Shown here: one piece after another, positions 3,312-31,891 of the stretch | How positions within the stretch are numbered: position 1 is the first letter of the stretch | Layout of the letters: each line of letters opens with the position of its first letter | Source: an uncultured Acidimicrobiales bacterium | Lineage (GTDB): Bacteria; Actinomycetota; Acidimicrobiia; Acidimicrobiales; SZUA-35 | NCBI GenBank assembly: GCA_938021675.1 | Contig: CALIFY010000070.1 | Coordinates: 1 to 41,167 of the forward strand | Direction of reading: 5' to 3' | DNA: 41,167 nucleotides | Notes under the pieces: generated by a model | Told to the model about the DNA's origin: nothing | Databases searched by the model: none | Seen by the model: the letters and a program-made list of their open reading frames with translations, nothing else | Program-made: the position numbers and the translations under genes

Positions 3312-6300
3312 CGACCACCCAGGGCATTGCCTCTCGACTTCGGACCCGCCCCACCGAGGCTCTACTACAGGCCGGGAGACGGATAGGACTACGGGTCGAC
3401 CGCCAGTTCCTAGCCGGCATCGATCTTGTCAGCAGCTCAGCTATCGGGGCGTTGGTCGGCATCATGTTCTGGCTAGCCGCAGCCCGCGGGTTCGATGAAG
3501 CGACCGTGGGAGTCAACTCGGCGCTCGTTTCCACCATGATGCTCGTTGCCGGGACGGCCAGCCTCGGACTGCCAAACGCACTCGTCCGGTTCATCCCCGC
3601 ATTCGGGGCACAGGCCAAGACCCTGATGATCCGTTCCTACCTGGTGTCGGGGGTACTGACGGCGGTGCTCGGCATCGCGGTCGGGATTGGCCTTGGGATC
3701 TTCTACGAAGAGCTCACGCTACTCCGATCGACGGTCGGAGTGCTCCTGTTCGCGGCCGCATGTGTGGCCTGGCAAATCTTCGTCCTCCAGGACAGCATGC
3801 TGGTGGCCATCGGCCGGACCCGCGTCGTCCCAATCGAGAACGCCGTATTTTCAATCGCCAAGCTCGTGGCACTCGTCGCCATGATCTCGCTGCTGCCAAC
3901 GTGGGGCATCTTCGCCGCCTGGGTCGGTCCGGTAGTCCTCATAATTGCCGCGGTCAACATAGTAATATTTCGACACTTCCGGGCGGTCGGTGATGGCGAT
4001 GCCGCTGAGGCCAGCGAGCTTCTCGGAACCAGCGATCTCATCCGGTTCTCAATCGGCGAGCACGCTGCCACTCTTTTGTGGATGGGAGCGATCGGCGTCC
4101 TCCCGCTCGTCGTGCTCGGACGTTTGGGTGACGAGGCGAACGCCTTCTATGCCATGGCATGGTCGATCGCCTACAACCTCTTTCTGGTTTCGACCAACAT
4201 CGGTACCGCCCTTCTGGCAGAAGCGGCCCAAAAGCCCCAGCTACTCCAGCAACAAAGGACGACGGCACTGCGCCAGATGGCGTTGTTGGTCGTGCCCGGA
4301 GCGCTCGGATTGTTCATCGTCGCTCCCCTTCTGCTTCGAGTTTTCGGCGGAACGTATTCAAGCGAAAGTTTGATCGTGCTGCGGTTGCTGGCGTTGGCGG
4401 CCATCGCCCACCTTCCGGTTGCGGTATTTATGGCCGCGGCCCGAGCCGAGCGTCGGATGCGGGCGCTGTTCATCGTGGTAACGACCGAAGTTGGTCTCGT
4501 AGCACTTATCACCGCGGTAACCATCGACCGTTTTGGCGTCACCGGGGTGGGCCTCGCTTGGCTCAGCGCCGAGGTACTGCTCGGCATCGGGCTTCTGTTC
4601 ACCGACCTACGCCCGGCGTTCATGACGGTGTGGCGGTCCGGCGTCGCAGCGCTCCGACGGACCAAACTCCTCCGGGGAGACCGCCTGGTCTGGGCCGGCG
4701 CACTGGTGTTCGCCATCGAAGCACTGCTGGTAGCACTGACCGGCTTGTCTCGGGTATCGACCGAACTACTCAGCGATTTGGGCCTCATCTCGGCCGTGCC
4801 GCCCCTGACGATCGGTGCCACGTTCGTGGTGATCGTTACCGCCGTCCTGGCCATCGAGCGACCGTTTCTGGAGGAACGCTGGCCGGCCGGCCACGTCGCG
4901 GTGCTCGTCACGCTACTTTCGGCTGCGCCGTCGGTGGCCTATGAAACGGTTCGGTACCCGTGGGCCTTTAAACACATCGGGGTAACCGACTTTATTTTGC
5001 GAACCGGTGGGGTCGATCGAGGCATCGATGTGCTCGACGTCTACCACAACTGGCCTGGCTTCTTCAGCAGTTACGCCTCGATCGTGAGCCTGGCTGGCCT
5101 CCAGGACGCCATCGGACTCGCCGTATGGGCGCCGCTTACGTTCAATCTGATGACGCTGCTGGCGCTGGCATTCGTCATACGTCAGCTGAGTTCATCTAGG
5201 CGAGTCGTGTGGTCGACCTGCCTCCTGTTTTTCTTGACGAACTGGATCGGCCAAGACTATTTCGCCCCCCAAGCTCTCGCTCTCGTACTCTATTTGTTCA
5301 TCATCGGCACGGTGCTGCGGCTCTATCGGCGTCACCGTTCGGTTGAACCGTCGGCCATCGTTCATGGGGCCCTGGTGCTGGCAACGGTCGCTCTGGTTTC
5401 CAGTCATCAACTCACCCCGTTCTTCCTCCTGGCGTCCCTCACCGGTTTAGCCCTGATTCGCCAGATCTCATATCGTCTTCCGCTGATGGTCGGCGTCGTA
5501 CTCGCGGCATGGATAACCATCGGAGCGTTCCCGTTCCTGGCCGAAAACTTGCCAAAGTACATCGACACGCTCGGTTCTCCATCAGAGAACGCCGCAGGAT
5601 CGTTTGGACTTGCCGCCGAACGGAGCGACGGTCAGGCGGTTGTGGCGATGGCCGGGAGATTGCTCCTGGTCGGTCTCGGCATCGTGGCGTCGTTCGGGGC
5701 CTTTCAGCTGTTTCGTCGGCCACAGCGAGACCTCGCTCCGTTCGTGTTACTGGCGGCACCGGCCGGCGGTCTATTCCTGGCCTTCGGCGGCGAAATTTTG
5801 TTCCGGGTCGTGCTCTTCATGTTGCCGATGCTGTCGTTCTTCGCCGCGTCCGCGCTGGCCTCGATCGACAATCGGAAGCTCCGGGTTGGGGCGACGATGT
5901 CGTTGGCGTCACTAGCGCTCGTGCCCTTCAGCTTTGCGTACTACGGAAAAGACAGCTTTTACACCTTCAGCGATGACGAGGTGACCTTGGTCGGTGAACT
6001 CTCAAGAGAAGCACCAAATGGTTCGCTCCTGATCGAAGGCACCCGCAACTACCCGGCGCAGTACGTCGACTACGAAAAGTTTGTGTATGTCCCCATCGCT
6101 CAGGAACCGACCGCATCCGTAGCCCGAGTCGAATCCGATCCAGCCAACGAGCTCTACGGATGGATGACCGGGACCGACTACCCGGCCGCGTATGTGTTGC
6201 TGACCGATGGACAGCGGGCTGAAACCGAAGCCGTTGGATCGCTTCCAGCCACGATGCTGCCCGAGATCGAAGAAGTCCTTCGGGACGATTCTCGTTTCGT

Positions 6301-6355
6301 CGTCCACATGGAAAACGACAGCGGCGTCGTCTTTACATTGGCGGTTGAAGAATGA
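3308..6355 (+). CDS. Wzx-like polysaccharide flippase fused to a GT-C-like membrane domain
   Basis: A 1015-residue multi-spanning membrane protein. The first roughly 450 residues resemble Wzx/MOP-superfamily oligosaccharide flippases: a helix bundle opening with SSSAIGALVGIMFWLAAARG, and a later segment like the polysaccharide-biosynthesis C-terminal helices. The remaining 560 residues add many more membrane segments. They include the NWIGQDYFAPQALALVLYL stretch, resembling large GT-C-type actinobacterial membrane proteins, and a soluble C-terminal tail of about 130 residues. The start is taken as GTG 3308, which overlaps the stop of the upstream gene (GTGA); a TTG three codons earlier is less likely. 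The next gene overlaps its stop by 4 bp. Inference: one polypeptide both flips and modifies or polymerises a lipid-linked glycan. The GT-C label for the second half is tentative. Confidence 0.8.
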   Translation: MTTTQGIASRLRTRPTEALLQAGRRIGLRVDRQFLAGIDLVSSSAIGALVGIMFWLAAARGFDEATVGVNSALVSTMMLVAGTASLGLPNALVRFIPAFGAQAKTLMIRSYLVSGVLTAVLGIAVGIGLGIFYEELTLLRSTVGVLLFAAACVAWQIFVLQDSMLVAIGRTRVVPIENAVFSIAKLVALVAMISLLPTWGIFAAWVGPVVLIIAAVNIVIFRHFRAVGDGDAAEASELLGTSDLIRFSIGEHAATLLWMGAIGVLPLVVLGRLGDEANAFYAMAWSIAYNLFLVSTNIGTALLAEAAQKPQLLQQQRTTALRQMALLVVPGALGLFIVAPLLLRVFGGTYSSESLIVLRLLALAAIAHLPVAVFMAAARAERRMRALFIVVTTEVGLVALITAVTIDRFGVTGVGLAWLSAEVLLGIGLLFTDLRPAFMTVWRSGVAALRRTKLLRGDRLVWAGALVFAIEALLVALTGLSRVSTELLSDLGLISAVPPLTIGATFVVIVTAVLAIERPFLEERWPAGHVAVLVTLLSAAPSVAYETVRYPWAFKHIGVTDFILRTGGVDRGIDVLDVYHNWPGFFSSYASIVSLAGLQDAIGLAVWAPLTFNLMTLLALAFVIRQLSSSRRVVWSTCLLFFLTNWIGQDYFAPQALALVLYLFIIGTVLRLYRRHRSVEPSAIVHGALVLATVALVSSHQLTPFFLLASLTGLALIRQISYRLPLMVGVVLAAWITIGAFPFLAENLPKYIDTLGSPSENAAGSFGLAAERSDGQAVVAMAGRLLLVGLGIVASFGAFQLFRRPQRDLAPFVLLAAPAGGLFLAFGGEILFRVVLFMLPMLSFFAASALASIDNRKLRVGATMSLASLALVPFSFAYYGKDSFYTFSDDEVTLVGELSREAPNGSLLIEGTRNYPAQYVDYEKFVYVPIAQEPTASVARVESDPANELYGWMTGTDYPAAYVLLTDGQRAETEAVGSLPATMLPEIEEVLRDDSRFVVHMENDSGVVFTLAVEE

Positions 6356-8461: not shown

Positions 8462-8956
8462 TCACCACAACACATCTCCATTCGGGTAGAAGGCCGGAGG
8501 GGCGGGAGGAAAGGAGTAGATCGTGCCCCGTTGAGGTATCGGCGGCGCATCCTCCACCAAGGTGCCATCCGGCTGACGATACGAACGATCGTGGGTCTCG
8601 GCCCTCTCGTCGTATATCCGGTCGGTGCGTGCGTTCGTACAGTCGAGCCAATACCGAGCCCATGCCTTCGCTTCGGCCTGCAACTGCCCAACGGCCGTCG
8701 CTACCGCGGTCCGTTCGTCGTCGTGTAGTCCTATGAAGGTGTCGGCGTGCGGACCGATCCACTCGTTCATGGCCGTTCCCATCGCCTCCACCCGACCGCT
8801 CTCAGCGTCCTCGATTGCCTTTGCCACCTGCCAAAGTGTCCTGGCAAGGGTGAGCGCCCGCTCAAGAACGGCAGGGTCGTGGAAGGCATTGATGGACATA
8901 GACTGCGGTGATTGTTGCTGCGGAACGGTCGAAGGCCCATGGGGACCGGTCCCCAT
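8462..8956 (-). CDS. WXG-type helical protein, candidate type VII secretion substrate
   Basis: A 164-residue, mostly helical protein with EWIGPHADTF at about 65-74. This is the W-x-G turn followed by the downstream aromatic typical of the WXG100/ESAT-6 superfamily. It is longer than the usual 100 residues, with a proline-rich, tyrosine-containing tail. It is divergent from the EssC-like ATPase gene (31 bp between the starts), and a second WXG-like gene lies on the far side of that ATPase. Start choice: the ATG at 8956 has CGGAG nine bases upstream. An internal ATG at 8899 would give a more canonical WXG protein but has no visible ribosome binding site. Inferred role: secreted substrate or partner of the neighbouring ATPase. 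Confidence 0.8.
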   Translation of the reverse strand: MGTGPHGPSTVPQQQSPQSMSINAFHDPAVLERALTLARTLWQVAKAIEDAESGRVEAMGTAMNEWIGPHADTFIGLHDDERTAVATAVGQLQAEAKAWARYWLDCTNARTDRIYDERAETHDRSYRQPDGTLVEDAPPIPQRGTIYSFPPAPPAFYPNGDVLW

Positions 8957-8958
8957 GG
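8937..8958. promoter_or_regulatory. 22-bp perfect palindrome at the divergent start region of the type VII locus
   Basis: A perfect inverted repeat centred on ACCGGT, with core GGGGACCGGTCCCC at 8941-8954, spans 8937-8958. It covers the start codon of the minus-strand WXG gene and ends about 30 bp before the ATPase start. The 17-base string GGGGACCGGTCCCCATG recurs exactly at 14272-14288, upstream of the second WXG gene. A shared operator is the simplest reading. A duplicated 5' gene end is the alternative, since both copies read Met-Gly-Thr-Gly-Pro on the minus strand. Confidence 0.5.
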
Positions 8959-8987
8959 TGTGATACTCCGGGTGCGAGTGCGGTTGA

Positions 8988-11900
8988 GTGATGGAAATCT
9001 TCGTACGGCTGGAAGCTGCCGAGCACGATGGCGATTCTGCTAGCCATCAAGCCGACCTCGCTATCGGGGTCGAACCGTCGCACACCGTCGGCGACGTGGC
9101 GGCCGCTATCGCCGAGTTCATCGGACGCCCGCCGGGCACCATCCCGACCTTGTCTCGTCGCGGCACCGGCGCACTAAACCCGGCGACCACAGTCGCCGAC
9201 TCCGGCATCCTCTCCGGCGAGACACTCGTGCTCGGCTCGATTACGGCGACACCTCGGCGACGACCGGCCGAACTCCGACTCATCGTCGCCTCCGGCCCCG
9301 ATGCCGGTGCATCGTTCCCACTCGAACCGGGAGACCACACGATCGGGCGCGACGCCAACTGTGACATCGTGCTCACCGATCCCCAAATTTCACGCCGGCA
9401 CCTGACGCTCACGGTGCACAAGAACAGGCACCTGACGCTTGAAACGCTGGTCTCGGAACGCAACGAGGTCCGAACGACCGGGCATCGGTTGGTCGGAGCC
9501 AACCCGATCGCGGTAGATCAAGTTGTCCGGGTCGGGGCCTCAACCCTGGTGGTTCGGGAAGCGCCGACCATGCAACGCAACAACGTCGATGCGTTCGGGC
9601 AGGTGCCGTTCCACCGCACACCATATTTTCCAACCCCGGTCGAGTCGGTCGTCATCCAAGAGATCAAAGACGTGCCGACCCGGCCGGAGAAGCCCCGGTT
9701 CGTCTTGCTAGCCATCTTGGCGCCGATCGTGATGGGTGTTTCGCTGGCGCTGTTCATCGGCAGCCCTCGATATCTCCTGTTGGCGTTCCTTTCGCCGACA
9801 ATCGCCATCGGCAACTTCATCGAGACCCGCCGCCGATCGGGACGGACGTTCACCGCGGCCGTCGAACGGTTTGAGCAGGCGCTCGCCATCAAGGCCGACG
9901 AAGTGCGCCAGGCACTATCGACCGAACGGCGTCGCCGGTTCGTCGGCGCCCCGGACGTTGCCGACATCGCCGACCGGGCCGAACACCGAGCTATCGATCT
10001 GTGGGTCCGTCACCGCGATGCCTCCGACTTCCTCACACTACGGGTCGGTCTCGGAGACGTACCGACCGAGATCGAGGCCAAAATCGGCGACCGCGGCGAC
10101 ACCGAGTTCCGCGATCAGATCCAGGCCGCGTACGGTGAAACACATACCGTTACCGACGTGCCGGTGGCCCTCAAGCTGGCAGAACTCGGCGTCGTAGGAC
10201 TTGTCGGTCGAGCGATGGAGACGTCCTCACTGGCCTCATCGCTCGCTATTCAAGCCACCGGCCTTCACTCCCCGGAAGACCTCATCCTTCTCGGCGCCTT
10301 CGCCCCGGCTCGACACCTGCTGGAACAGCTCAAGTGGACGCCACACAGCCGGTCGACTAGCTCGCCGCTGGCCGGTCCCCACCTCGTCGGAACCAAAGGG
10401 GCGGCCGACGGACTGATACGAGACCTCATCACCGAGGCGGCGAACCGCTCGTCGGTCGCCAAAGACCGCCAGAGTCGCGACCCGCGCTTTCCCTGGCTGC
10501 TGTTACTTCTCGATCGAGCCCTCGAACCCGATCCGGCCCTCGTGTCACGGCTGCTCGATCTTTGCCCCACAACTGGGATATCGGTGGTATGGCTTACCGA
10601 CACGAGGGAGCGAGTCCCCCGTCAAGCCCAGGCCATCGTCGAATGCCAATCCCCTCTCACCGGTGACCTGTCGCGGATCTTGTTCACCGACCCGACCAAA
10701 CCAGACCTGTATATCGACATCGACCGGCTCGGCCCCCAGCGAGCGACCCTCACCGCACAAGCGCTCGCCCCGCTTCGTGACGCCTCGGCCACCAATGCCG
10801 CCACTGCGTTACCACGGGTCGTTCCGCTGTTCACCGCGTTCGGTATTGAGGCCATCGACGCCGATTGGGTTGCCACCCAATGGCAGACCCGACGTGGCTA
10901 CTCGGTGGCCGGACCGATCGGTCTGACCGAGTCAGGACCACTACACCTCGACATGGTGACCCATGGCCCCCACGGCCTTATTGGCGGAACGAGCGGAGCC
11001 GGCAAAAGCGAACTCGTCATGTCCATCGTGGCCAGCTTGGTGGCCCACAACCCTCCGACGAAGGTCAACGTTCTGTTCGTCGACTACAAGGGCGGCGCAT
11101 CGAGCGACCTGTTTAAGGACGTGCCCCACACCGTCGGCTACGTCACCAACCTCGACGGCCTGCTGTCGATGCGGGCCTTGACCTCTTTGCGGGCCGAGCT
11201 GAACCGCCGGATGGACCTGTTGAAAGGTCGGGCCAAAGATCTCGCTGAGATGATCGAACGGTACCCCGAGGAAGCCCCACCCTCGCTGGTCATCGTGGTC
11301 GACGAGTTCGCCACACTGGTCAAAGAAATTCCCGATTTTGTGGCCGGGATCGTCGACATCGCCCAGCGCGGTCGGAGCCTCGGTATTCATCTGATCTTGG
11401 CAACGCAGCGCCCGTCGGGTTCGGTCAACGACAACATCAAGGCGAACACAAACCTTCGGATCTCGCTTCGGATGTTGGACTCTTCGGAGTCGAACGCAGT
11501 CATCGGAACCGCCGACGCTGCCGCGCTACCGGCACCTCTCAAAGGTCGAGGGTTTGCCAGACTCGGTCCGGGGGAACTGGTGGCGTTCCAATCGGCTTGG
11601 GCCGGCGCACCGCTGCTGGCCGACACTGGTCCACCGCCGGTGACCGTGGAGCCGTTCGGCCATACCCCACTTCCGCCAGCCGCCCTCGCCCGTCAGGAAC
11701 TACCGACACGCCATCGCAATGGCCTGACCAAAAACTCTCCGGGCGATGCTCAGACCCCGGCAAAAACTCAGGTTTCGGCGCTGCTCGACGCGGTCATCGA
11801 GGCAACGAAACAGCTGGCGATGCCCAACGGCCGGCCCCCATGGCTCGACGTGCTTCCGGCGGTAATCCCCATCGAAGAGGTACGCCGAGCGGCCACCAAC

Positions 11901-13433
11901 GAACCAGCCGAGCAGGCTGCGGTGCCGGGCGAACGAGTCGCTATCGGCATGATCGACGACCCGGCCGCCCAGGCCCAGTATCCGTTGGTCACCAACCTGG
12001 CCCGGTCTGGAGGTTTGATCGCATTCGGGACCGGCGGCACCGGTAAATCGACGATGCTAAAGACGGCCGCTCTTTCGGCATCGCTCGACGATTCGGAACG
12101 AGGGGGCGGCGGGTTGACCATCTTCGCTATCGACTTCGCATCGAGGGAACTCGGCGCCCTCAACGCACTACCGCAATGTGCGGCGGTTGCCGCCAGTGAC
12201 GATATGGAAGCGGTCACCAGAGTAATCACCGTGCTCCACGAGACCTTCGAGTTGCGCCGCCAAGCGCTGGCCGACGCGGTGGCACGATCAGCGCCGCCTC
12301 CCGAGCATTCTCGTGTGTTGCTACTGGTAGATGGGCTCGACGCGCTGATCCAGACCATGGAGGCCGGAGCGTCGACCTCGGGTTTGATCCCCTTCTACGA
12401 GAAGCTCACCCAACTGCTCGTCGACGGTCGACAAGTTGGCATCTACCCGATTTTGGCCGCTGCCCGTCGAGCGGGGGTGCGGTCGACCATCATGTCGGCC
12501 ATCTCCGACCGGATCACCCTCCGCCAAGCCGATGCCCAGGGGTACCTGGAGGCCGGGCTCAGATCCAGCGAGGCAGCGGACGTAGAACTCGACCCAGGGC
12601 AAGGCCTGTACAACGGGCCAACCATGGTACAAATCGCCAAACTGACCGACCCGGCCCTCGCCGGCAACGAAAGCCTCGAGGTGCGGGAGACGGCGGAACG
12701 AGAGCGGCTGGTAGCGGTCGCCGGCGGGTTAACCGGCTGGGTCGATCCGGATCTGCGAACTGGTCCGCTACCAAGGTCGGCCGAGGTGCTCCCATCCGAT
12801 GATCCGCTCCGCCCCGTTGTCGGCGTCGCCGATTTGACGCTCAAACCGATTCACCTCGATCTGACCTACAACAATGTGGCCGTGTACGGTGATCCCCGCA
12901 CCGGCCGGTCCACCGCGCTGGCCACGATCGGCCACCAGGTGATGGTGGCCGGCGGTGAGGTGTGGGTAGTGGCGCCACCTCACTCGCGCCTCGTCGCGCT
13001 CGATGGTGTTCACCGAACGTGCTCCGAAACCGGGGATGCGCTGATGGCCTTCCTCGACGAGTTGACCGAACGGGCGGCCAGCGAACCGCGCCCCGATCGG
13101 CTGCTACTCCTCGACGACGTCGATCTACTCGACGAATCAAACCGGCAGCTGATGACCGCGGTGAGCGGAGCGCTGCTCGAGGTCAGCCATGTGGCGGCAA
13201 CGACTCGCGTTCGAGGGTATAGCGCGAGCCCCGTCCAGCAAGAGCTAAAGAAGTGTCGCACGATCGTGCACCTCTGCCCGCTTGATGGGCGCGACACCCA
13301 GGAGGTGATCGGCGTTGTTCCTCAGTGGCATCCGGGACTGGCCATGACCGAAGGGCGGGGCTACATCGCCGCCGATCGGATCGCCACGATGGCGCAGTTC
13401 AGCGACGTGTTCGCCGACGAACCGTCGATCTGA
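8988..13433 (+). CDS. EssC/EccC-type type VII secretion ATPase with ubiquitin-like and FHA domains
   Basis: A 1481-residue FtsK/SpoIIIE-family ATPase, the motor of type VII secretion. Domain order: a ubiquitin-like beta-grasp region similar to YukD or the EccD N-terminus (about 1-85); an FHA phosphopeptide-binding domain with IGRDANCDIVLTD and SRRHL (about 96-190); two membrane segments (about 238-256 and 261-277); then three FtsK-like ATPase domains. Domain 1 has Walker A GGTSGAGKSE at 666-675 and Walker B VVDEF near 771. Domain 2 has GTGGTGKST from 1014. Domain 3 has GDPRTGRST from 1301, where arginine replaces the P-loop lysine, so it is probably weak or inactive. FHA plus membrane pair plus three ATPase domains is closer to Bacillota EssC than to split mycobacterial EccCa/Cb. 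The start is GTG 8988 or ATG 8991. No EccB, EccD, EccE or mycosin gene lies nearby. Confidence 0.92.
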   Translation: MMEIFVRLEAAEHDGDSASHQADLAIGVEPSHTVGDVAAAIAEFIGRPPGTIPTLSRRGTGALNPATTVADSGILSGETLVLGSITATPRRRPAELRLIVASGPDAGASFPLEPGDHTIGRDANCDIVLTDPQISRRHLTLTVHKNRHLTLETLVSERNEVRTTGHRLVGANPIAVDQVVRVGASTLVVREAPTMQRNNVDAFGQVPFHRTPYFPTPVESVVIQEIKDVPTRPEKPRFVLLAILAPIVMGVSLALFIGSPRYLLLAFLSPTIAIGNFIETRRRSGRTFTAAVERFEQALAIKADEVRQALSTERRRRFVGAPDVADIADRAEHRAIDLWVRHRDASDFLTLRVGLGDVPTEIEAKIGDRGDTEFRDQIQAAYGETHTVTDVPVALKLAELGVVGLVGRAMETSSLASSLAIQATGLHSPEDLILLGAFAPARHLLEQLKWTPHSRSTSSPLAGPHLVGTKGAADGLIRDLITEAANRSSVAKDRQSRDPRFPWLLLLLDRALEPDPALVSRLLDLCPTTGISVVWLTDTRERVPRQAQAIVECQSPLTGDLSRILFTDPTKPDLYIDIDRLGPQRATLTAQALAPLRDASATNAATALPRVVPLFTAFGIEAIDADWVATQWQTRRGYSVAGPIGLTESGPLHLDMVTHGPHGLIGGTSGAGKSELVMSIVASLVAHNPPTKVNVLFVDYKGGASSDLFKDVPHTVGYVTNLDGLLSMRALTSLRAELNRRMDLLKGRAKDLAEMIERYPEEAPPSLVIVVDEFATLVKEIPDFVAGIVDIAQRGRSLGIHLILATQRPSGSVNDNIKANTNLRISLRMLDSSESNAVIGTADAAALPAPLKGRGFARLGPGELVAFQSAWAGAPLLADTGPPPVTVEPFGHTPLPPAALARQELPTRHRNGLTKNSPGDAQTPAKTQVSALLDAVIEATKQLAMPNGRPPWLDVLPAVIPIEEVRRAATNEPAEQAAVPGERVAIGMIDDPAAQAQYPLVTNLARSGGLIAFGTGGTGKSTMLKTAALSASLDDSERGGGGLTIFAIDFASRELGALNALPQCAAVAASDDMEAVTRVITVLHETFELRRQALADAVARSAPPPEHSRVLLLVDGLDALIQTMEAGASTSGLIPFYEKLTQLLVDGRQVGIYPILAAARRAGVRSTIMSAISDRITLRQADAQGYLEAGLRSSEAADVELDPGQGLYNGPTMVQIAKLTDPALAGNESLEVRETAERERLVAVAGGLTGWVDPDLRTGPLPRSAEVLPSDDPLRPVVGVADLTLKPIHLDLTYNNVAVYGDPRTGRSTALATIGHQVMVAGGEVWVVAPPHSRLVALDGVHRTCSETGDALMAFLDELTERAASEPRPDRLLLLDDVDLLDESNRQLMTAVSGALLEVSHVAATTRVRGYSASPVQQELKKCRTIVHLCPLDGRDTQEVIGVVPQWHPGLAMTEGRGYIAADRIATMAQFSDVFADEPSI

Positions 13434-13506
13434 GGGGTCAGCGGCCGCCGAGGGCAGGCCAACAGGGCAAGCTCCGACGGAAACGGATCACCAATACACA
13501 AAGATA

Positions 13507-13535
13507 TGTAGGACCGGCCGCCCGCCGGCCCTACA
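13507..13535. terminator. Hairpin between the convergent ATPase and WXG genes
   Basis: An 11-bp stem with a single mismatch: TGTAGG-A-CCGGC, loop CGCCC, GCCGG-C-CCTACA. It sits 74 bp after the ATPase stop and 41 bp beyond the stop of the convergent WXG gene. There is no clear T-run, as is common in high-GC genomes. Position and stem strength suggest a bidirectional transcription terminator. Confidence 0.6.
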
Positions 13536-13575
13536 CGATCAGGCAAGATTCAGGTTGGGTCGGAACGGCGCTGGT

Positions 13576-14175
13576 TTACGAGGCGGTTCCGGTGTTTTCG
13601 AGCGAATCGATCTGCCCCTGGAGCGATGTCTGCAGCTCATCACGGGCACCTTCGACGTCGGGCACCACGACGGTGTTGACCTGTGAGGTCACGTCAGCGG
13701 CGGTCGCATCCTTTTCTGGACCTTCCCACGCCGAGGTATCGATGGCCGGGCCGATCTCCTGGTACTTGGTCACGATGGCGGCCATCTGGGTGCCGATGTG
13801 AGTATGGAGTTCGCCCATGTCGGCCGTGTCGGCGTGGTATCCCTCTTCCTTCTTCGAAGTCGCCGGCATGGCGTTGGTGAGCTGTTCGATCGAGGGTGCC
13901 GGCCACGGCTGCCCGCCGAGTTTTTGGACGACCACGTTCATGTTGGTGGTCACCGTGTCGAGAATGTTCTGCAAGTTGGCGTTTTGGGCCGCATTGAACG
14001 CTTCGACGGTGGTATTCATCCCCACAGCAAACGTGTCGGCATTCTCGCCGACGAAAACCGTCTCTTCGAGCCGGCCGTTCATGAGTTGCAGATCGGCCAG
14101 GATGCCCTGGACGCGAATATTGACATCGTCGCGACACTGGTTGAGGTCGGCCATGGTGACGTGGTGAACAGACAT
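13576..14175 (-). CDS. Tandem WXG100-like protein, candidate type VII secretion substrate
   Basis: A 199-residue helical protein that looks like two WXG100-type hairpins in a row. The first turn reads FVGENADTF at 41-49, with phenylalanine in place of tryptophan. The second reads AWEGPEKDA at 149-157. Each half is about 100 residues, the size of one ESAT-6-like unit, so the protein may be a pre-fused dimer. The start is ATG 14175, preceded by GAAAGGCAAG; the frame is open further upstream but without a comparable ribosome binding site. It is convergent with the EssC-like ATPase. Secretion by that ATPase is inferred from the family and the neighbourhood. No YxxxD/E secretion tail was recognised. 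Confidence 0.78.
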   Translation of the reverse strand: MSVHHVTMADLNQCRDDVNIRVQGILADLQLMNGRLEETVFVGENADTFAVGMNTTVEAFNAAQNANLQNILDTVTTNMNVVVQKLGGQPWPAPSIEQLTNAMPATSKKEEGYHADTADMGELHTHIGTQMAAIVTKYQEIGPAIDTSAWEGPEKDATAADVTSQVNTVVVPDVEGARDELQTSLQGQIDSLENTGTAS

Positions 14176-14271
14176 GATCTTGCCTTTCGTCGGGAAGCGG
14201 GGTCCCGTCGATCGGGGGCCGCAGTGTTCTTTGACAACAGCAATGTACGATCGAAGCACCCCTGGCGGAAG

Positions 14272-14376: not shown

Positions 14377-14895
14377 ATGACCCTTCCACCCGACGATACC
14401 GACGTCAAGCATGACACCTCGATTGCCACCGCCATCGATGCGCTACTACGCCAACCGCCAGTCGGGTTGATCCTCGTTCGACCAAGCGTGCCCCTATTCG
14501 ACGACGACGAACGTCGAATGTCGCTCGTCGAGGCGGCGATCGCAGCAACGCTCCAACGCCTGGCCGATATGGCCGACGCCCGAGACCTTGTCGTGGCCAT
14601 CCAGTCCGACCTGGTATTGCTGGTAAGACCGGCCCTGACCGCTCCCGCCGAGACCGAGGGGTTGGCCCGCCGGCTTCACACCGAACTAAGCCAACCGATG
14701 ATCATCGACGATCAACCGATTCGGTGCAGTATCAATATCGGCGTGGCCGTCAGCGCTCCGGCCGACACCGGAGCCAAACTACTGGGCTACGCCCGACGAG
14801 CGCTTGAAGACGCTCGAACCTTGGGCGGCAACCAGGTGCTCATATTCGACGATCCGGACCGCGAGCTGCTCGAACCGCCGGGCCGCTCGGGCTAA
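14377..14895 (+). CDS. Degenerate GGDEF-like protein
   Basis: A 172-residue protein that follows the GGDEF (diguanylate cyclase) fold pattern. A central beta-hairpin is followed by a helix (GLARRLHTELSQP), then a SINIGVAVS strand, an LLGYARRALEDARTLGGN helix and an IFDD end. Where GGDEF should be, near residue 75, the sequence reads IQSDLVLLV, so the active-site loop is lost and c-di-GMP synthesis is not expected. A sensory or scaffolding role is possible. AGAGG directly abuts the ATG; an in-frame TAG just upstream rules out an earlier start. It is divergent from the tandem WXG gene and overlaps the convergent lysS stop by 4 bp (CTAA). A link to the secretion locus is only positional. Confidence 0.7.
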   Translation: MTLPPDDTDVKHDTSIATAIDALLRQPPVGLILVRPSVPLFDDDERRMSLVEAAIAATLQRLADMADARDLVVAIQSDLVLLVRPALTAPAETEGLARRLHTELSQPMIIDDQPIRCSINIGVAVSAPADTGAKLLGYARRALEDARTLGGNQVLIFDDPDRELLEPPGRSG

Positions 14896-16298
14896 GACTG
14901 CTCCGGTCGAAGGGTTGGGAACAACACTACGTCTCGGATGGTTTGGGCATCGGTCAACAACATGACGAGGCGGTCGATGCCGATACCGAGCCCACCGGTT
15001 GGCGGGAGGCCGTACTCCATCGCCCGAAGGTAGTCATCGTCGACGACCATAGCCTCGTCGTCGCCCTCGGCTTTCAGTCTGGCCTGGTCTTCAAATCGAG
15101 CCCGTTGCTCGTCGGGATCGATTAACTCGCTGAAGGCATTTGCCAACTCTCGACCGGTCACCACCGCTTCGAAGCGTTCGGTGAGGCCGGGCACCTCACG
15201 GTGTCCCCGCGAGAGGGGCGAGACTTCCTTTGGATAGTCGGTGACGAAGACCGGATCGAACAGGTTGCCCTCAACCGTCTTCTCGTACAGTTCGAGGATG
15301 AGCTTGCCGGGACCGTAGCCGTCCTCGACGTGGACGCCGTGCTCGTCGGCGATCCGACGAAGCTCGGCAAGATCCGTCGTCAACCCCACCCCGACGCCGA
15401 TATGTTCCTCGATCAGCTCGGTCATCGATGCTCGCCGCCAAGGAGGGCTGACGTCGAGCGACCGCCCGCCGTAGTTCAGCTTGGTGGTGCCATGTATCTC
15501 GTTGGCGAGATAGGCGATCAGTTCCTCGACGAGGACCATGATGTCGTCGTAGTCGGCATATGCCTGATACAGCTCAAGCATGGTGAACTCGGGATTGTGC
15601 CTGGTGCTGATCCCCTCGTTCCGGAACACCCTCCCGATTTCGAACACTCGCTCGAATCCGCCGGCCACCAGTCGTTTCAAATACAGCTCAGGAGCGATAC
15701 GGAGGAAGAACTCTTGGTCGAGGGCGTTGTGGTGGGTCGTAAACGGCCGAGCTGCGGCGCCACCGGGAATCGGATGGAAGATCGGTGTCTCGACTTCCAT
15801 AAACCCTCGGTCTTCTAGCCACCGCCTGGTCAACGACACGATCCGCGACCGAAGCTCGAAGATATGACGACTCTCCGGAGTCACCCAAAGATCGACGTAG
15901 CGTTGCCGATACCGAACGTCTTGGTCGGTGAGGCCGTGAAACTTGTCGGGGAAAGAACGACGGGCCGACGCCAGCGTCACCCACTGCTCAACCTTGACCG
16001 ACAGTTCACCCTTGCGGGTCTTCATGACCTCGCCGGTCACCCCGATCCAATCGCCGAGAGAAAGATCGCAGAACGACTGAAACTCCGGCGTGACCTTGGC
16101 TGGAGCGAACAGCTGAATTCGCCCTCCCGAGTCCTGCAGGGTACCGAAGGCCAACTTGCCCTGGACCCGACGCAGCATGAGCCGGCCGGCGATGGTGACC
16201 TGTTGTCCGGTCTCGTCGCCGGCCTCTATGCCGTCGTGGGTGGTGCGAATATCGGCTGAGGTAGCCGTCGGCTCGAATCGGTATGGAATGCTCGACAT
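14892..16298 (-). CDS. lysS: Lysyl-tRNA synthetase, class II
   Basis: Charges tRNA(Lys) with lysine in the cytoplasm. The 468 residues contain an N-terminal OB-fold anticodon-binding domain (about 30-140, with LQDSGGRIQLF) and a class II catalytic core. Motif 1 lies around FMEVETPIF, motif 2 around FEIGRVFRNEGISTRHNPEFTM, and motif 3 reads GLGIGIDRLVMLLT near the C-terminus. The length is slightly short of the usual 490-500 residues. It is the last gene of a minus-strand run that begins at folP, 24 bp after nadC, so co-transcription is likely. Confidence 0.96.
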   Translation of the reverse strand: MSSIPYRFEPTATSADIRTTHDGIEAGDETGQQVTIAGRLMLRRVQGKLAFGTLQDSGGRIQLFAPAKVTPEFQSFCDLSLGDWIGVTGEVMKTRKGELSVKVEQWVTLASARRSFPDKFHGLTDQDVRYRQRYVDLWVTPESRHIFELRSRIVSLTRRWLEDRGFMEVETPIFHPIPGGAAARPFTTHHNALDQEFFLRIAPELYLKRLVAGGFERVFEIGRVFRNEGISTRHNPEFTMLELYQAYADYDDIMVLVEELIAYLANEIHGTTKLNYGGRSLDVSPPWRRASMTELIEEHIGVGVGLTTDLAELRRIADEHGVHVEDGYGPGKLILELYEKTVEGNLFDPVFVTDYPKEVSPLSRGHREVPGLTERFEAVVTGRELANAFSELIDPDEQRARFEDQARLKAEGDDEAMVVDDDYLRAMEYGLPPTGGLGIGIDRLVMLLTDAQTIRDVVLFPTLRPEQS

Positions 16299-16322
16299 GG
16301 GGATGGTCCGATGGTGGCTCGG

Positions 16323-17231
16323 TCAGGTCTTTGAGTGGTCGGTGTCGTCCGGTACGACATCGAGGCCGATGTCGAGGACGGGTGCCGAGTTCGTGATCGA
16401 ACCCGACGAAACGAGGTCGACGCCGGTGTCGGCGTAGGCGTCGAGCGTGTCGAGCGTGATACCACCCGAGGCTTCCAGCAGGGGCCGTGTTCTGCCGGCC
16501 TGGGCTGTCGCCCACTCGTCGACCTTTGGCACGAGGGCGGTGAGCTCGTCGGGGGTGAAGTTGTCGAGAAGGATGATGTCTGCCTTGGCCTCCAACGCGT
16601 CGAACAGCACAGTCTCATCGTCGGCTTCGACGTGAACGGTTCGGCCAGGCCAACGGCGACGAGCCTCGGCCACCGCCTCGCCGACCGACAAACCGCCCTG
16701 CCGGCCACCCAGGAGATGGTTATCTTTCAGCATGAGCCAATCGGAAAGGTTGCCGCGGTGGTTGGCCGCGCCTCCGGCCCGCACCGCCGCTTTCTGCATC
16801 GACCGGTAGCCGGGAATGGTCTTTCGCGTGTCCCACACGGTGACTCGCCCGGCGGCGATCTCAACCCACCGGGCTGCATTGGTGGCGATCCCCGACAGGT
16901 GGCTGAGGAAGTTGAGGGCTGTCCGCTCTGCGGTGAGCAGCGTGGCGTAGCGACCCGTGGCGACCCCGAACGTCTCGCCCGCTTCGACCCGGTCGCCATC
17001 GGTTTTTTTCCAAGTCACGGTCAGCGATGGATCCACCGCGGCGAATGTCTCTTCGACGCATCGGCAACCGGCGATCACTCCTGGGTGGCGGGCGGCAAAC
17101 TCCGCGGTGGCCAGGAGGTCTTGGTCTAGCAGTGACGACGTGAGATCGCCAAGAGGCGTGAGGTCTTCAGCCAGGGCCCGGTCGACGAGGAACCGAATGT
17201 CGGCGATGGGTGGTTGGAGATCGGTACGCAC
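16323..17231 (-). CDS. nadC: Nicotinate-nucleotide pyrophosphorylase (carboxylating)
   Basis: Quinolinate phosphoribosyltransferase: converts quinolinate and PRPP into nicotinate mononucleotide, CO2 and pyrophosphate in de novo NAD synthesis. The 302 residues show family signatures: DTRKTIPGYR in the active site, GGAANHRGNLSDWLMLKDNHL with the conserved Lys-Asp-Asn-His, VHVEADD, and LLEASGGITLDTL near the C-terminus. The start is GTG 17231. It lies between folK and lysS on the same strand. nadA and nadB are not in the window. Confidence 0.95.
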   Translation of the reverse strand: MRTDLQPPIADIRFLVDRALAEDLTPLGDLTSSLLDQDLLATAEFAARHPGVIAGCRCVEETFAAVDPSLTVTWKKTDGDRVEAGETFGVATGRYATLLTAERTALNFLSHLSGIATNAARWVEIAAGRVTVWDTRKTIPGYRSMQKAAVRAGGAANHRGNLSDWLMLKDNHLLGGRQGGLSVGEAVAEARRRWPGRTVHVEADDETVLFDALEAKADIILLDNFTPDELTALVPKVDEWATAQAGRTRPLLEASGGITLDTLDAYADTGVDLVSSGSITNSAPVLDIGLDVVPDDTDHSKT

Positions 17232-17293
17232 AGCCCGACCAGCTTATGAGGTGTACCGGGCAGGGCCACCGGCATCGTCTCGGCCGCTGGCGG

Positions 17294-17755
17294 TCACAAC
17301 GGCCCGACCCTGGTGACAGCGCCGAGCGCGGTGGCCGGATCGTAGCCGGCGGATTCCATGATGTCCGCCAGGTCGGGGGCGACGTCCAACAACGGTTGCA
17401 TCACGAAGTTCCGCTCGACCATCCGAGGGTGAGGCACCGTCAAGTCGACGTCGTTGACGACGATGCCTTCGACCCACAGCACATCGACGTCGAGCGTGCG
17501 AGGGCCCCAACGGACGATTCGTTCCCGGCCGGCCGAGCGCTCCAACTCACCGCAAAGCGCAAGCAACTCGTGAGGCGTTCGCTCCGTGTCGAGCTCGACG
17601 ACAATGTTGTAGAACGCTCCTTGATCCGGACCGCCGACCGGTTCAGTCTCGTACACCGGGGATACCGCCACCAGTTCACCGATGGCACTCGCCGCCTCCC
17701 GAAGGATGGCCCGCCGGTCGCCAAGGTTCGATCCAAGACCTAGGAACGCACGCAC
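17294..17755 (-). CDS. folK: 2-amino-4-hydroxy-6-hydroxymethyldihydropteridine pyrophosphokinase
   Basis: HPPK transfers pyrophosphate from ATP to 6-hydroxymethyl-7,8-dihydropterin, the step between FolB and FolP in folate synthesis. The 153 residues begin with FLGLGSNLGDR, show YETEPVGGPDQGAFYN, and carry the signature RWGPRTLDVDVL with its metal-binding aspartates. PHPRMVERNFV follows. The start is GTG 17755, 3 bp after the folB stop, so translation is probably coupled. Confidence 0.95.
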   Translation of the reverse strand: MRAFLGLGSNLGDRRAILREAASAIGELVAVSPVYETEPVGGPDQGAFYNIVVELDTERTPHELLALCGELERSAGRERIVRWGPRTLDVDVLWVEGIVVNDVDLTVPHPRMVERNFVMQPLLDVAPDLADIMESAGYDPATALGAVTRVGPL

Positions 17756-17758
17756 GGG

Positions 17759-18175
17759 CTAAGGGCGAACGCGGTGGATTCGTACTCCGGTGGTGTCGAC
17801 GTGAGCCGCCACCGGCGGTCGAATTTTGCGGACTGTCACGGTGGCCTCCGAAACGGCGCTCAGCTCGAACACCAATTCGACAACCCTGGCCGCTAACCGT
17901 TCCAACAATTGAAAGCGTTCGGCGACCAAGCCGGCCGAGATGCCGTCGACGAGGGCGCCGTAGTCGGCTGTCGCCGTGAGATCATCGGTCGCGGCGGCGA
18001 CGGACAAATCGAGGTACAAATCGAGATCGAACAGGAAGGGCTGCGCCCTCGCCTGTTCCTCTGGGAGCACGCCGCAAAACAGCAACATCTCAAGCCCCCG
18101 CACCTCGATCCGATCGGCTGGCCCATCGACGGATGGCCGAGGGTCAGGCACCGCAGGTCCGAGAGGCAGCCACAT
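17759..18175 (-). CDS. folB: Dihydroneopterin aldolase
   Basis: Cleaves 7,8-dihydroneopterin to 6-hydroxymethyldihydropterin and glycolaldehyde for folate synthesis. The 138 residues contain the tunnelling-fold pattern RIEVRGLEMLLFCGVLPEEQ, with the conserved substrate-binding Glu, then PFLFDLDLYLDL and DYGALVDGI. The usual length is about 120; the excess is an N-terminal tail of about 20 residues. The ATG used overlaps the previous gene by 32 bp, so a start slightly further in is possible. It is followed 3 bp later by folK. Confidence 0.93.
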   Translation of the reverse strand: MWLPLGPAVPDPRPSVDGPADRIEVRGLEMLLFCGVLPEEQARAQPFLFDLDLYLDLSVAAATDDLTATADYGALVDGISAGLVAERFQLLERLAARVVELVFELSAVSEATVTVRKIRPPVAAHVDTTGVRIHRVRP

Positions 18176-18665
18176 GTTCGGCTGCCGTCACGATCGACCG
18201 ACCGGTGGGCCCCATCTGCCGACCGAGAATTCGTTCCACCACGGTGATGGCATCGAAGGTAACCGGCACCATTCCGGTCCAACGGAGGTATCCGGCCATC
18301 AGCCCGGCGATACGGTCTCCGACCTCTTCCATGTGTAAGAGAAGTTTCTTGCCGTCGCCGAGCTGGGTTTGTAGCTCGCTGTACAACTGCGGCAGCACGA
18401 CTTCCAGATCGAGCGAGGGGGCAAAAGACCAGTGTTTCCACGGCATGCCTTGCTCATCGTAGGCGTGGAGATTGTGGTCGGAGGGGATCAGCGATACGAC
18501 AAAGGCAAAGTCGTTTTCCCGGATCCAGATGACCTCTTCTTGGCGACGGACCCGACGATGGTTCTTCCCATAGCCACCCGGTCGCTCACAGATGGCCAAT
18601 TGTTCTTCGATTATCCAGTGAAACGCCCTGGGTCGAATCCCTTGTGCCCATTTTCCCTTGGCCAT
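18144..18665 (-). CDS. Conserved protein with degenerate dual-specificity phosphatase-like fold, folate operon
   Basis: A 173-residue protein between folP and folB. The C-terminal half reads LLLHMEEVGDRIAGLMAGYLRWTG, which aligns by eye with the phosphatase P-loop and its following helix (H-C-x5-R-[ST]-G). The nucleophilic cysteine is replaced by methionine, while Gly-Asp-Arg and the helix are kept. It is therefore probably not an active tyrosine phosphatase of the usual kind. The start is ATG 18665, with AGGAG about nine bases upstream, located just after the folP stop. Tight packing in the operon suggests a link to pterin or folate metabolism, for example acting on a phosphorylated pterin. 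That link is inference. Confidence 0.75.
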   Translation of the reverse strand: MAKGKWAQGIRPRAFHWIIEEQLAICERPGGYGKNHRRVRRQEEVIWIRENDFAFVVSLIPSDHNLHAYDEQGMPWKHWSFAPSLDLEVVLPQLYSELQTQLGDGKKLLLHMEEVGDRIAGLMAGYLRWTGMVPVTFDAITVVERILGRQMGPTGRSIVTAAEHVAASRTCGA

Positions 18666-18670
18666 ATTGC

Positions 18671-19534
18671 TTACTCCTGGTCATCTCTTCCTGCGACCAC
18701 GGTCGCAGCCTGCTTGGCCGCCTTCACATCGTGGACCCGGACCAGGTCCACTCCTTGCAGCATGGCGTACGTCGCCGTTGCTATCGATCCTACTAGCCGT
18801 TCACCGACAGGAGCCGGCTGGTCTCCCCCATCTGAGCGAGCGATGAGATGGCCGAGCATCGCTTTTCGGCTCGTGCCGACCGCCACATGCAGACCGGTGG
18901 CGACCAGCTGATCGAGCCCGGCCAACAATCTCAGGTTGTGGTGCAGAGTTTTCCCGAATCCGAATCCGGGGTCGATCCACACGTCGGGAACGCCAGCGTC
19001 GATCGCCTGCGTCGCTCGTTCGACAAGATACTCCTTGACCTCGGTGAGTACATCGCCGTACACCGGGCGCCGCTGCATGGAAGACGGGTCGCCCTGCATG
19101 TGCATAGCGATCCACCCAACGCCAAGGTCGGCTGCTACCGGCCAGAGCGAGGCACTGATGTCGTTGATGATGGAAGCGCCGGCGGCCACTGCAGCCCTCG
19201 CCACCTGCTCGTGGCGGGTATCGACCGAGATCCGACAATGAGGGCCGAGCGCTTCGATGATGGGGATAACCCGCGACATTTCTTCCCGCGTCGAAACCGG
19301 AACTGCCCCTGGTCTCGTCGATTCACCCCCGACGTCTATGATGTCTGCTCCCTCGCCGGCCATGGCGATGGCATAGTCGATGGCTTGGTCGTGATCGATT
19401 TCTACTACACCACGATCGGTGACGCGCTCGTGCCGATCGGAGTCGTTCCGATCGTCGACGGCAACGAACCGCCCGCCGTCGCTGAACGAGTCGGGGGTTA
19501 CGTTCAGGATTCCGAGCACCAGTGGCCTGCCCAC
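18671..19534 (-). CDS. folP: Dihydropteroate synthase
   Basis: Joins 6-hydroxymethyldihydropterin pyrophosphate to p-aminobenzoate to make dihydropteroate; the sulfonamide target. The 287 residues start with LGILNVTPDSFSDGGRF and contain DIIDVGGESTRPGA (pterin-binding loop), ISVDT, IINDIS, WIDPGFGFGKT and GTSRKAML. All of these are classic DHPS blocks. The start is GTG 19534 without an obvious Shine-Dalgarno sequence, so a leaderless or near-leaderless transcript is possible. It is the first gene of the minus-strand folate operon and is divergent from the carbonic anhydrase. Confidence 0.96.
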   Translation of the reverse strand: MGRPLVLGILNVTPDSFSDGGRFVAVDDRNDSDRHERVTDRGVVEIDHDQAIDYAIAMAGEGADIIDVGGESTRPGAVPVSTREEMSRVIPIIEALGPHCRISVDTRHEQVARAAVAAGASIINDISASLWPVAADLGVGWIAMHMQGDPSSMQRRPVYGDVLTEVKEYLVERATQAIDAGVPDVWIDPGFGFGKTLHHNLRLLAGLDQLVATGLHVAVGTSRKAMLGHLIARSDGGDQPAPVGERLVGSIATATYAMLQGVDLVRVHDVKAAKQAATVVAGRDDQE

Positions 19535-30389: not shown

Positions 30390-31136
30390 CTAGTCGAGCG
30401 TGGACCGGCGAAGAGTAGCCAGCGCTCGATGGAGTGTTCGCGAGACGTACATCTGACTCATACCGACCTCCCGGGCGATGTCACGCTGGTTTCGGTCGCC
30501 AAAGAACTTGAGTTCGACAATCTGCCGCTCGACAGCTGTGAGCCGACCGAGCATCTCAGCCACCACGTGCCGATCCTCTACCCGTAGCGGATCATCATCG
30601 ATCGTTCCGAGGGTGTCACCAAACGTCACGCCCTCACCGGCTCCCGATGGCGCGTCGATCGACTCGGCCGTGTACGCCTGCACGGCCTCCATCGCGGCCA
30701 GCACCTCGTCGACCTCCGCCCCAACCGATTGGGCCAGCTCCGGGATCGTCGGGCTCCTACCGAGTTCCTTGGCCAGCGTGTCGAGCGAAACCCGAATGGC
30801 CTGGCCGAGATCCTGATGATGGCGGGAGATGCGGACCGACCACGCCTTGTCTCGGAAGTATCGCTTCAACTCGCCGTCGATGGTACGACCGGCGAAGGTC
30901 TCGAAACGCACGCCCAGTTCCGGGTCGAACCGTTCAACGGCTCCGATCAGCGCCATCCGGGCCACCTGTTCAAGGTCTTCAAGCGCCACGCCGCGACGGG
31001 CGTAACGGCGGGCGAACCCGCGGCCGAGCAGTAGATGGTCCTCTACGAGACGGTTGCGTAACTCGATGCAGCGTTCACGGCGATACCGATCGAACAACTC
31101 CCCCGTCGTTGCGGCCGCCTCACGCTCCACGGCCAC
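30390..31136 (-). CDS. SigF/SigB-type general stress sigma factor
   Basis: A 248-residue group 3 sigma factor. Region 2 reads LVEDHLLLGRGFARRYARRGVALEDLEQVARMALIGAVERFDPELGVRFETFAGRTIDGELKRYFRD. Region 3 follows with SLDTLAKELGRSPTIPELAQ. Region 4 carries the helix-turn-helix (LTAVERQIVELKFFGDRNQRDIAREVGMSQMYVSRTLHRAL). The order and the R-F-E-T-F-A signature are characteristic of the SigB/SigF family. It overlaps the end of the RsbW-like gene by 17 bp on the same strand, the usual anti-sigma/sigma operon order. A SigF-type promoter upstream of that operon implies autoregulation. Confidence 0.94.
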   Translation of the reverse strand: MAVEREAAATTGELFDRYRRERCIELRNRLVEDHLLLGRGFARRYARRGVALEDLEQVARMALIGAVERFDPELGVRFETFAGRTIDGELKRYFRDKAWSVRISRHHQDLGQAIRVSLDTLAKELGRSPTIPELAQSVGAEVDEVLAAMEAVQAYTAESIDAPSGAGEGVTFGDTLGTIDDDPLRVEDRHVVAEMLGRLTAVERQIVELKFFGDRNQRDIAREVGMSQMYVSRTLHRALATLRRSTLD

Positions 31137-31882: not shown

Positions 31883-31891
31883 GGACTGGCA

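Follow-up and report, generated by a model that had tools for sequence, protein, structure and literature searches.

A predicted reduced type VII secretion locus with a ubiquitin-like/FHA ATPase and a tandem WXG protein in an uncultured Acidimicrobiales bacterium

The ATPase locus

The window analysed here spans positions 1 to 41,167 of contig CALIFY010000070.1 (C70) of an uncultured Acidimicrobiales bacterium, whose 4.45-Mb genome is assembled in 99 contigs (GCA_938021675.1; G000 below), and it contains a compact group of three genes that resembles the core of a type VII secretion system (T7SS). The central gene, the core of the system, lies on the forward strand at 8991..13433 and encodes an EssC/EccC-like motor ATPase of 1480 aa; its open reading frame (ORF) spans 8988-13433, with the ATG at 8991 as the likely start. 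To its left, on the reverse strand, lies wxgA (8462..8899), which encodes a 145-aa WXG-type protein with one WXG region and a proline-rich tail and is a homologue of toxin-partner genes; its homologues suggest a start at the ATG at 8899, as opposed to the ORF 8462-8956 called earlier. To its right, also on the reverse strand, lies wxgB (13576..14175), encoding a 199-aa tandem WXG protein of two predicted helical hairpins that turn at two x-G/W-x-G motifs; this ORF reaches only the ATG at 14175, and 14259 is an upstream GTG. The 91 bp between the divergent starts of wxgA and the ATPase gene (8900..8990) are presumed, from their coordinates only, to form a shared control region.

A preliminary description of this DNA had placed a WXG-type gene on each side of the ATPase and had seen no EccB, EccD, EccE or mycosin gene in the window, and both points were borne out. 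When the 32 ORFs of a simple gene call, or longer overlapping ORFs, were compared with Pfam together with wxgA, the matches listed included no EccB, EccD, EccE, mycosin or EssB. General scans of the window with Pfam and NCBIfam listed no mycosin, for which no genome-wide search was made, and no Ser/Thr kinase turned up in the general Pfam scans of the window ORFs.

Domains and affinities of the ATPase

The ATPase matches the Pfam families FtsK_SpoIIIE (E = 8.5e-38) and FHA/Yop-YscD_cpl. Its best NCBIfam profile is that of EssC (TIGR03928), which covers aa 208-1188 at E = 1.5e-151, below the curated cut-off; the EccCa and EccCb models reach 306 and 226 bits, both also below their curated cut-offs, and the best sequence match in the PDB is B. 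subtilis YukB (E = 2e-63). The FtsK/SpoIIIE fold would also suit a DNA-translocating FtsK relative with fortuitous helical neighbours, an explanation that we regard as far-fetched given the long EssC match and the conserved WXG partners and toxin modules described below.

Two domains precede the motor. The first, at 8991..9236 on the forward strand (about aa 1-82), is a ubiquitin-like domain of the YukD type, recognised by AlphaFold2 and by sequence profiles. An AlphaFold2 model of the N-terminus (alignment of 25 sequences, mean predicted local distance difference test score (pLDDT) 85.2) has a beta-grasp-like order of elements over aa 1-82, followed by a beta-sandwich. Pfam YukD is matched by 13 of the 24 ATPases of the window's clade (defined below) at E ≤ 0.05, the window's own match, at 0.0015, falling short of the curated cut-off. 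A profile of the 24 N-termini finds single ubiquitin domains in the PDB (a redesigned ubiquitin at 4e-10, RAD23 at 2.3e-5). The matches listed by the structure search were to FHA domains, and the sequence profiles settled the call for this part instead. The claim that a ubiquitin-like domain is built into the ATPase is thus confirmed by the order of elements in the model, the YukD matches and the ubiquitin profile.

The second domain, an FHA domain at 9267..9566 (about aa 93-192), is supported by structure comparison, Pfam (E = 1e-8) and alignment. In a VIA comparison with 3gqs, it reached Z 17.9 with a root mean square deviation (rmsd) of 1.4 over 98 aligned residues, and in the alignment it has the G-R, S-x-x-H and N residues that we take to be the phosphothreonine-binding signature. 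A hydropathy scan places one or more hydrophobic membrane segments at 9702..9791 (aa 238-267). The first FtsK-type ATPase domain follows at 10935..11417, located by Pfam and an alignment of five sequences, all of which keep the P-loop lysine and the DEFATL Walker B region of this domain unchanged. The lysine of the second P-loop is likewise kept in 5/5, and in the third an R replaces K in 4/5, the window included.

Relatives of aa 1-640 of the ATPase occur in 50 of 395 genomes of the class, and a scan of named genomes with the ATPase gave 79 loci; the hosts include Acidimicrobiales metagenome-assembled genomes (MAGs), Ilumatobacter, Desertimonas, a Nitriliruptoraceae MAG, Solirubrobacter and Streptomyces. 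Among the carriers that can be cultured are Ilumatobacter nonamiensis YM16-303 (L104) and Desertimonas flava SYSU D60003 (L103). A tree of 112 ATPases places the window's protein in a 24-member clade with a local support of 0.998. L056 and L065 were left out, having no complete ATPase ORF, as were L090, L117, L120 and L146 from the later sequence collection; L046, L048 and L051, which duplicate the contigs of L088, L098 and L112, were left out of both the tree and the counts, and the near-identical records L108 and L109 were both kept among the 87 other loci. With profiles built from the clade and its neighbours, the ubiquitin-like and FHA domains were both present in 64 of 113 ATPases examined and in 22 of the 24 clade members, the two exceptions being truncated.

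wxgB, a tandem WXG protein

Both wxgA and wxgB are placed in the WXG100 superfamily by evidence other than Pfam: the Pfam WXG100 model matches neither, and NCBIfam gave no result on either. The preliminary view of two WXG genes needs correcting for wxgB, which is a tandem, two-hairpin protein and not a plain WXG100. An AlphaFold2 model of wxgB from 18 sequences (pLDDT 89.5) has helices at 8-38/46-85 and 118-146/153-198, with the hairpin turns at an x-x-G motif and at W-E-G, and the W-x-G of the second half is invariant in 18/18 relatives. Searching the PDB with a profile of these relatives placed 4lws first at a weak E of 0.0092 (annotated as uncharacterized, which we take to be EsxB-like), a designed helical bundle second, and S. 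aureus EsxA third, also weakly (0.018).

In the VIA structure comparison, the single-chain ESX-1 substrate EspB heads the list with Z 11.9 over 161 and 181 residues, the rmsd being 3.3 for the 161 aligned, followed by ferritin-like bundles at Z 11; in the range that includes Z 11.9, helical bundles can match by arrangement alone. Foldseek with the same model was led by ferritin-like bundles at E no better than 0.012, and the YxxxD/E export motif was found in the last 60 residues of 0/18 tandem WXG proteins. Taken together, the W-x-G conservation, the two-hairpin model and the 4lws, EsxA and EspB matches make wxgB look like a WXG dimer made as a single chain, at least in its predicted structure. 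The searched passages of a WXG100 survey (PMC3935865) make no mention of a fused or single-chain WXG pair.

At one clade locus, L047, an Rhs toxin gene with helix-hairpin-helix motifs at its C-terminal end stands between two tandem-WXG genes (12900-13490 and 18341-18931) whose predicted proteins are identical, which probably reflects a recent duplication.

Conservation of the ATPase with its WXG neighbours

At 19/24 clade loci a full-length wxgB is encoded no more than eight genes from the ATPase, as against 0/87 other loci, where single WXG proteins match it partially in 17/87. The wxgA profile picks up WXG-type neighbours of other ATPases (87-115 aa, at about 1e-5 to 1e-3), one ground for its place in the superfamily, and wxgA itself lies within four genes of the ATPase at 8/24 clade loci. 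Both genes accompany the ATPase at 7/24 (the window, L047, L086, L092, L094, L103 and L104). L086 (62% identity in the best segment) has the same order and strands as the window, and L087 (63% identity in the best segment) has wxgB with no wxgA nearby.

The pairing also holds when the genomes are searched with wxgB alone. Over the 395 class genomes its profile gives strong full-length matches exactly in G000, G265, G346, G366 and G002, which are exactly those with an ATPase at E ≤ 1e-100 (nominal p = 1.3e-11, the genomes not being independent); five further genomes with partial wxgB matches only (E 1e-5 to 7e-4) were not counted. The five are spread over three families. Other listed members of these families have neither gene, among them G223, G273 and G314 from the family of the window, so that the ATPase-wxgB pair is patchy but travels together. 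Over 396 genomes of the phylum the profile gave three more matches, two of which were the known loci L100 and L094. The third, L185, is new, and it carries wxgB, a ubiquitin-like/FHA ATPase and wxgA consecutively on a single strand; found by the wxgB profile alone, it is the best single test of the trio. The grouping of the ATPase with two WXG genes given in the preliminary description recurs in related genomes, both genes being present at seven clade loci, the window included, and at L185. Chance neighbourhood was considered and rejected on the wxgB genome profile, the clade-only linkage and the L185 trio.

Two loci have other neighbours. At L060 (5474-13783), a related FHA-ATPase stands among a PP2C phosphatase, two FHA-like proteins, a Ser/Thr kinase and a WXG-headed 411-aa protein (the kinase, PP2C and FHA assignments were made by eye). 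In G265, the surroundings of the ATPase include genes that by eye resemble those of Tad/Flp pilus assembly, of CpaB and CpaF type (L046:14443-17499); passages of the 2024 survey of type VII systems by Garrett, Higginson and Palmer report Tad/Flp genes near the ATPase for T7SSg and T7SSh (PMC11217815).

In the window itself, 14377-19519 holds a GGDEF-like gene, a class II tRNA synthetase (D/K/N type), a quinolinate phosphoribosyltransferase and folate genes. In part of the clade (L086, L087, L089, L093, L097) portions of this run also adjoin the ATPase, which suggests vertical inheritance at one chromosomal site. Further away, 3308-6355 encodes a 1015-aa protein that is rich in hydrophobic segments and matches nothing in Pfam, and the sigma factor, HATPase and PAS-SpoIIE phosphatase genes at 30390-34005 look like a partner-switching stress module.

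Search for membrane partners

The preliminary description left two explanations for the missing membrane components: that they are elsewhere in the genome, or that this is a reduced form made of ATPase and substrates. The genome does have two ESX (T7SSa) clusters, on C90 and C99 (L013, L014), with EccB, EccD, EccC and mycosin above curated cut-offs and EccE at best sub-threshold; both mycosin genes that were seen lie inside them. The ATPase might then be an accessory motor of these systems, borrowing their EccB, EccD and MycP. Each cluster, however, has its own EccC above the cut-off, neither EccC has a ubiquitin-like or FHA domain, so that the N-terminal domains differ from those of the ATPase, and the ATPase locus is unlinked to both. 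A complete ESX cluster that uses this ATPase was looked for, and both clusters carry an EccC of their own.

The relatives bear on the same question. EccB and EccD were searched in 37 of the 50 ATPase-bearing genomes and EssB in 14 of the 50. EccB (PF05108) was found in 1/37, which is G000, and in none of the 36 others; a second EccB model gave 1/8 genomes, a set that included three genomes of other classes. EccD passed its cut-off in 1/37, again G000. EssB was found neither in the window's own genome nor in any of the 14, and the B. subtilis positive control gave a match. Model searches found no EccB, EccD or EssB in G265, G346, G366 and G002; two of these, G346 and G002, are assembled as single contigs, which makes it unlikely that gaps in the assembly explain the missing parts there. 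Relatives that have the ATPase and tandem WXG but no EccB, EccD or EssB by these searches favour the reduced form, for which the preliminary description had cited the fused ubiquitin-like domain; its interpretation is partly supported. The accessory-motor explanation, by comparison, is very unlikely, because the four other class genomes and three genomes of other classes that have the same ATPase and a tandem WXG gave no EccB, and the four gave no EccD. On these EccB and EccD searches of relatives, a sharing of ESX parts was rejected.

It is quite possible, and a strong rival that overlaps the reading as a reduced system, that further membrane proteins are needed that are unlinked and other than EccB/D/E, EssA/B and EsaA, for instance of the TgpA-DUF58-MoxR kind. 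T7SSa and T7SSb use several membrane proteins, according to passages of the 2024 survey (PMC11217815). Within eight genes of the ATPase, MoxR occurs at 5/24 clade loci, DUF58 at 4/24 and transglutaminase at 5/24. On the other side, genes of these families also lie near 5/87 other ATPases and were not seen in the window scans, and only the tandem WXG among the neighbour families reaches half of the 24 loci. MoxR, DUF58 and transglutaminase are candidates for accessory roles only.

MoxR, DUF58 and TgpA-like transglutaminase genes stand close to the ATPase at L047, L092, L098 and L104, and at L058 outside the clade. Kinase-query matches lie near 4/24 clade loci; two of these (L092, L098) also match the transglutaminase query, which makes the kinase link weak.

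wxgA and toxin-like genes

The preliminary interpretation needs revision for wxgA too, which resembles a toxin-partner gene in having paralogues next to toxin-like genes at other loci. Its profile matches six of the 395 genomes, namely four of the five with ATPase and wxgB (not G002) and G114 and G289, which have related ATPases. The YxxxD/E motif occurs in 1/8 wxgA proteins, the window's own, and a tail pattern resembling P-x-F-x-P-T, written after looking at the sequences, fits 12/19 copies and is only a hint.

The window's own genome has three wxgA paralogues, whose matches have E values of 6e-36, 1e-16 and 3e-4; they lie on C59, C76 and C17, each in a module with toxin-like genes far from the ATPase locus. 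On C59 (L192:504-3818) an intact paralogue is followed after 3 bases by the gene for a 747-aa protein that combines RTX repeats (E = 8.5e-81) with a Peptidase_M91 domain at its C-terminus (5.6e-30), and then by a 156-aa gene. On C76 (L193:6323-9188) the paralogue overlaps a 192-aa ORF, which is followed in the same frame by a 452-aa ORF ending in an EndoU nuclease (4.8e-14), the N-terminal and nuclease parts thus being separate ORFs split by a stop, and then, where the contig ends, by a 119-aa ORF. The C17 paralogue (L194:8613-10945) overlaps an ORF without Pfam match that runs for at least 674 aa and reaches the contig end.

Similar modules occur in related genomes. G265 has an RTX module, a HINT/Ntox33 ORF about 1 kb from wxgA, a fusion of wxgA to a toxin-like part and a 727-aa ORF, and G366 has wxgA, an Rhs gene and a small gene. 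Genes that carry DUF6531 and numerous RHS repeats adjoin wxgB and/or wxgA in G346, L092, L094 and L104. At two of these, L092 and L104, the stop of wxgA overlaps the start of the Rhs gene, and a small gene that is immunity-like in its position lies between the Rhs gene and the ATPase. Rhs-like genes lie within eight genes of the ATPase at 7/24 clade loci, one of them (L105) a 204-aa fragment, compared with 0/87 others (Fisher p = 1e-5, the loci not being independent). Short Rhs-like fragments between the tandem WXG and the ATPase at L049 (11232-11897; DUF6531 and an RHS repeat) and L105 (8275-8889) are possible toxin remnants.

Among 19 wxgA copies, nine have a presumed toxin ORF, or its first part, within 200 bases downstream on the same strand, seven of these with Rhs, RTX or EndoU parts and two without a recognised family. 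One further copy is fused to a toxin-like part, five have one near in another arrangement, and four, the window's included, have none. A profile built from the N-terminal 115 aa of six Rhs toxins and run among 2288 proteins finds the C17 ORF (3.4e-7), the C76 ORF (1.1e-5), the wxgA fusion (4.3e-7), the 727-aa ORF (1.1e-3) and also a 1129-aa ORF beside wxgB in L086 (1.5e-6). The Rhs toxins and four non-Rhs ORFs linked to wxgA thus share a predicted N-terminal domain. In the window's own genome the ESX systems might export these modules instead, but for the family this appears unlikely: G265, G346 and G366 have wxgA-toxin modules, and the searches found neither EccB nor EccD in them.

Relation to described type VII systems

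A broad definition of type VII systems, an EssC/EccC ATPase with a WXG100-fold neighbour, covers the predicted products of this locus. The 2024 survey distinguishes T7SSa-j and, in the passages searched, places only T7SSa and T7SSd in Actinomycetota (PMC11217815). T7SSa, b, c and d were compared with the locus, and each differs from it in at least one defining feature.

With T7SSa, or ESX, the locus shares an EccC-type motor and a WXG pair, and EspB is the top but weak structural match of wxgB. It differs in the EccB and EccD partners, which the searches did not find in relatives, in a linked mycosin, of which the window scans gave none, in carrying the ubiquitin-like domain on the ATPase and not on EccD, and in being unlinked to the genome's own ESX clusters. 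The T7SSb (Ess) systems of Bacillota (YukB/EssC, EssB, EsaA, EssA, YukD) have the same order of FHA, membrane segment and FtsK domains, a ubiquitin-like component, and toxins with helical N-termini and small helical partners. They have two N-terminal FHA domains and EssB/YukC, whereas here a fused ubiquitin-like domain precedes a single FHA and EssB was not found. T7SSc is defined by an ATPase without FHA, and FHA is present here.

The closest comparison is with T7SSd of the Olsenella uli type, and the locus could be such an Olsenella/Bifidobacterium system in a different guise. According to the searched passages of the survey (PMC11217815), T7SSd is also found in Actinomycetota, with an FHA-bearing EssC-type ATPase that has conserved phosphothreonine-binding residues, a WXG protein and Rhs toxins near some loci, and no ESX/Ess membrane parts are named for it there. 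The same passages give it no ubiquitin-like protein, and a linked kinase (TsdD), TsdH and TsdI. In the locus described here, by contrast, a ubiquitin-like domain is fused to the ATPase, the WXG protein is tandem and not a WXG100, the window scans gave no kinase, and the toxin modules are dispersed. Identity with T7SSd is therefore unlikely, and membership was rejected on the presence of the ubiquitin-like domain and the lack of a linked kinase in the window.

The toxin modules recall two other arrangements, as far as the passages searched describe them. LXG toxins and their Lap partners (PMC9600955) combine a helical toxin N-terminus with an adjoining small WXG-fold partner and an immunity-like gene after, and the Listeria Rhs toxin LrhA is encoded with three small helical proteins beside EssC8 (PMC10327511). 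Here the partner is of the wxgA type with a proline-rich tail, and the carriers include RTX besides Rhs. Solo WXG proteins with a YueA-like ATPase, mobile T7SS versions of other phyla, similarly pair an ATPase and WXG without known membrane parts; in the passages of that paper searched, Actinobacteria are not listed, and neither a ubiquitin-like/FHA fusion nor a tandem WXG is mentioned (PMC3482391). Searches of an open-access library turned up no description of the present system; subscription papers were not searched.

A predicted reduced export system

Considering domain architecture, conservation and toxin modules together, the locus is probably the core of a reduced and distinct type VII secretion system of Actinomycetota, predicted to export wxgA-paired toxins. 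The ATPase would hexamerise, with its membrane helices forming a pore, and the fused ubiquitin-like domain may take the role of EsaB/YukD or of the EccD ubiquitin domain. The tandem wxgB could replace the EsxA/EsxB dimer with a covalently joined equivalent and so gate or activate the ATPase. Proteins of the wxgA type would each bind a toxin at its helical N-terminal domain and deliver it to the ATPase; the putative substrates are encoded here away from the machine, as modules of a wxgA paralogue, a toxin and a small gene. Through the FHA domain, activity may be coupled to a Ser/Thr kinase, a form of control that we only infer because no kinase is linked at the window locus.

Several observations weigh against the reading as a reduced toxin exporter. 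Five of the 24 clade loci have no tandem WXG; two are cut by contig ends, and L089, L097 and L101 are not, a closer look at these three finding none. wxgA is away from the ATPase at 16/24 clade loci, and G002, with ATPase and tandem WXG, gives no wxgA match. No toxin gene stands beside wxgA in the window, RHS repeats were not found in its genome at E ≤ 0.001, G346 lacks the further Rhs gene that had been expected downstream of its wxgA, and the Rhs N-terminal profile misses the RTX toxins at L192 (E = 3.8) and L195 (0.063). As to the membrane partners, the EccB search gave matches in 0/14 named control genomes, so that its only positive control is the two copies of G000, and EccD also gave two weak matches below the cut-off, in G206 and G110. 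The EccD and EssB searches covered genomes of the class and not the three of other classes, the genome searches score a limited number of candidates per genome, and unlinked membrane partners were sought with EccB, EccD and EssB models only.

A bolder version of the same proposal is that the ATPase, the fused WXG dimer and wxgA are a complete three-protein export machine for dispersed wxgA-toxin modules, and so an eleventh T7SS subtype beside T7SSa-j, and the smallest. All membrane-partner functions would then collapse into one polypeptide with its ubiquitin-like domain, FHA, membrane helices and three ATPase domains. We put this version forward tentatively, as a possibility more doubtful than probable.

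Implications

The predicted system bears on why type VII motors differ in their membrane partners across phyla, and on what the ubiquitin-like and WXG parts do for the motor. With a ubiquitin-like domain fused to the motor and an apparent one-chain WXG dimer, it would provide a minimal object for reconstitution and cryo-electron microscopy (cryo-EM). It also points to unrecognised toxin-like genes, among them putative peptidases, nucleases and Rhs proteins, in mostly uncultured Actinomycetota, which may be found by their wxgA neighbour.

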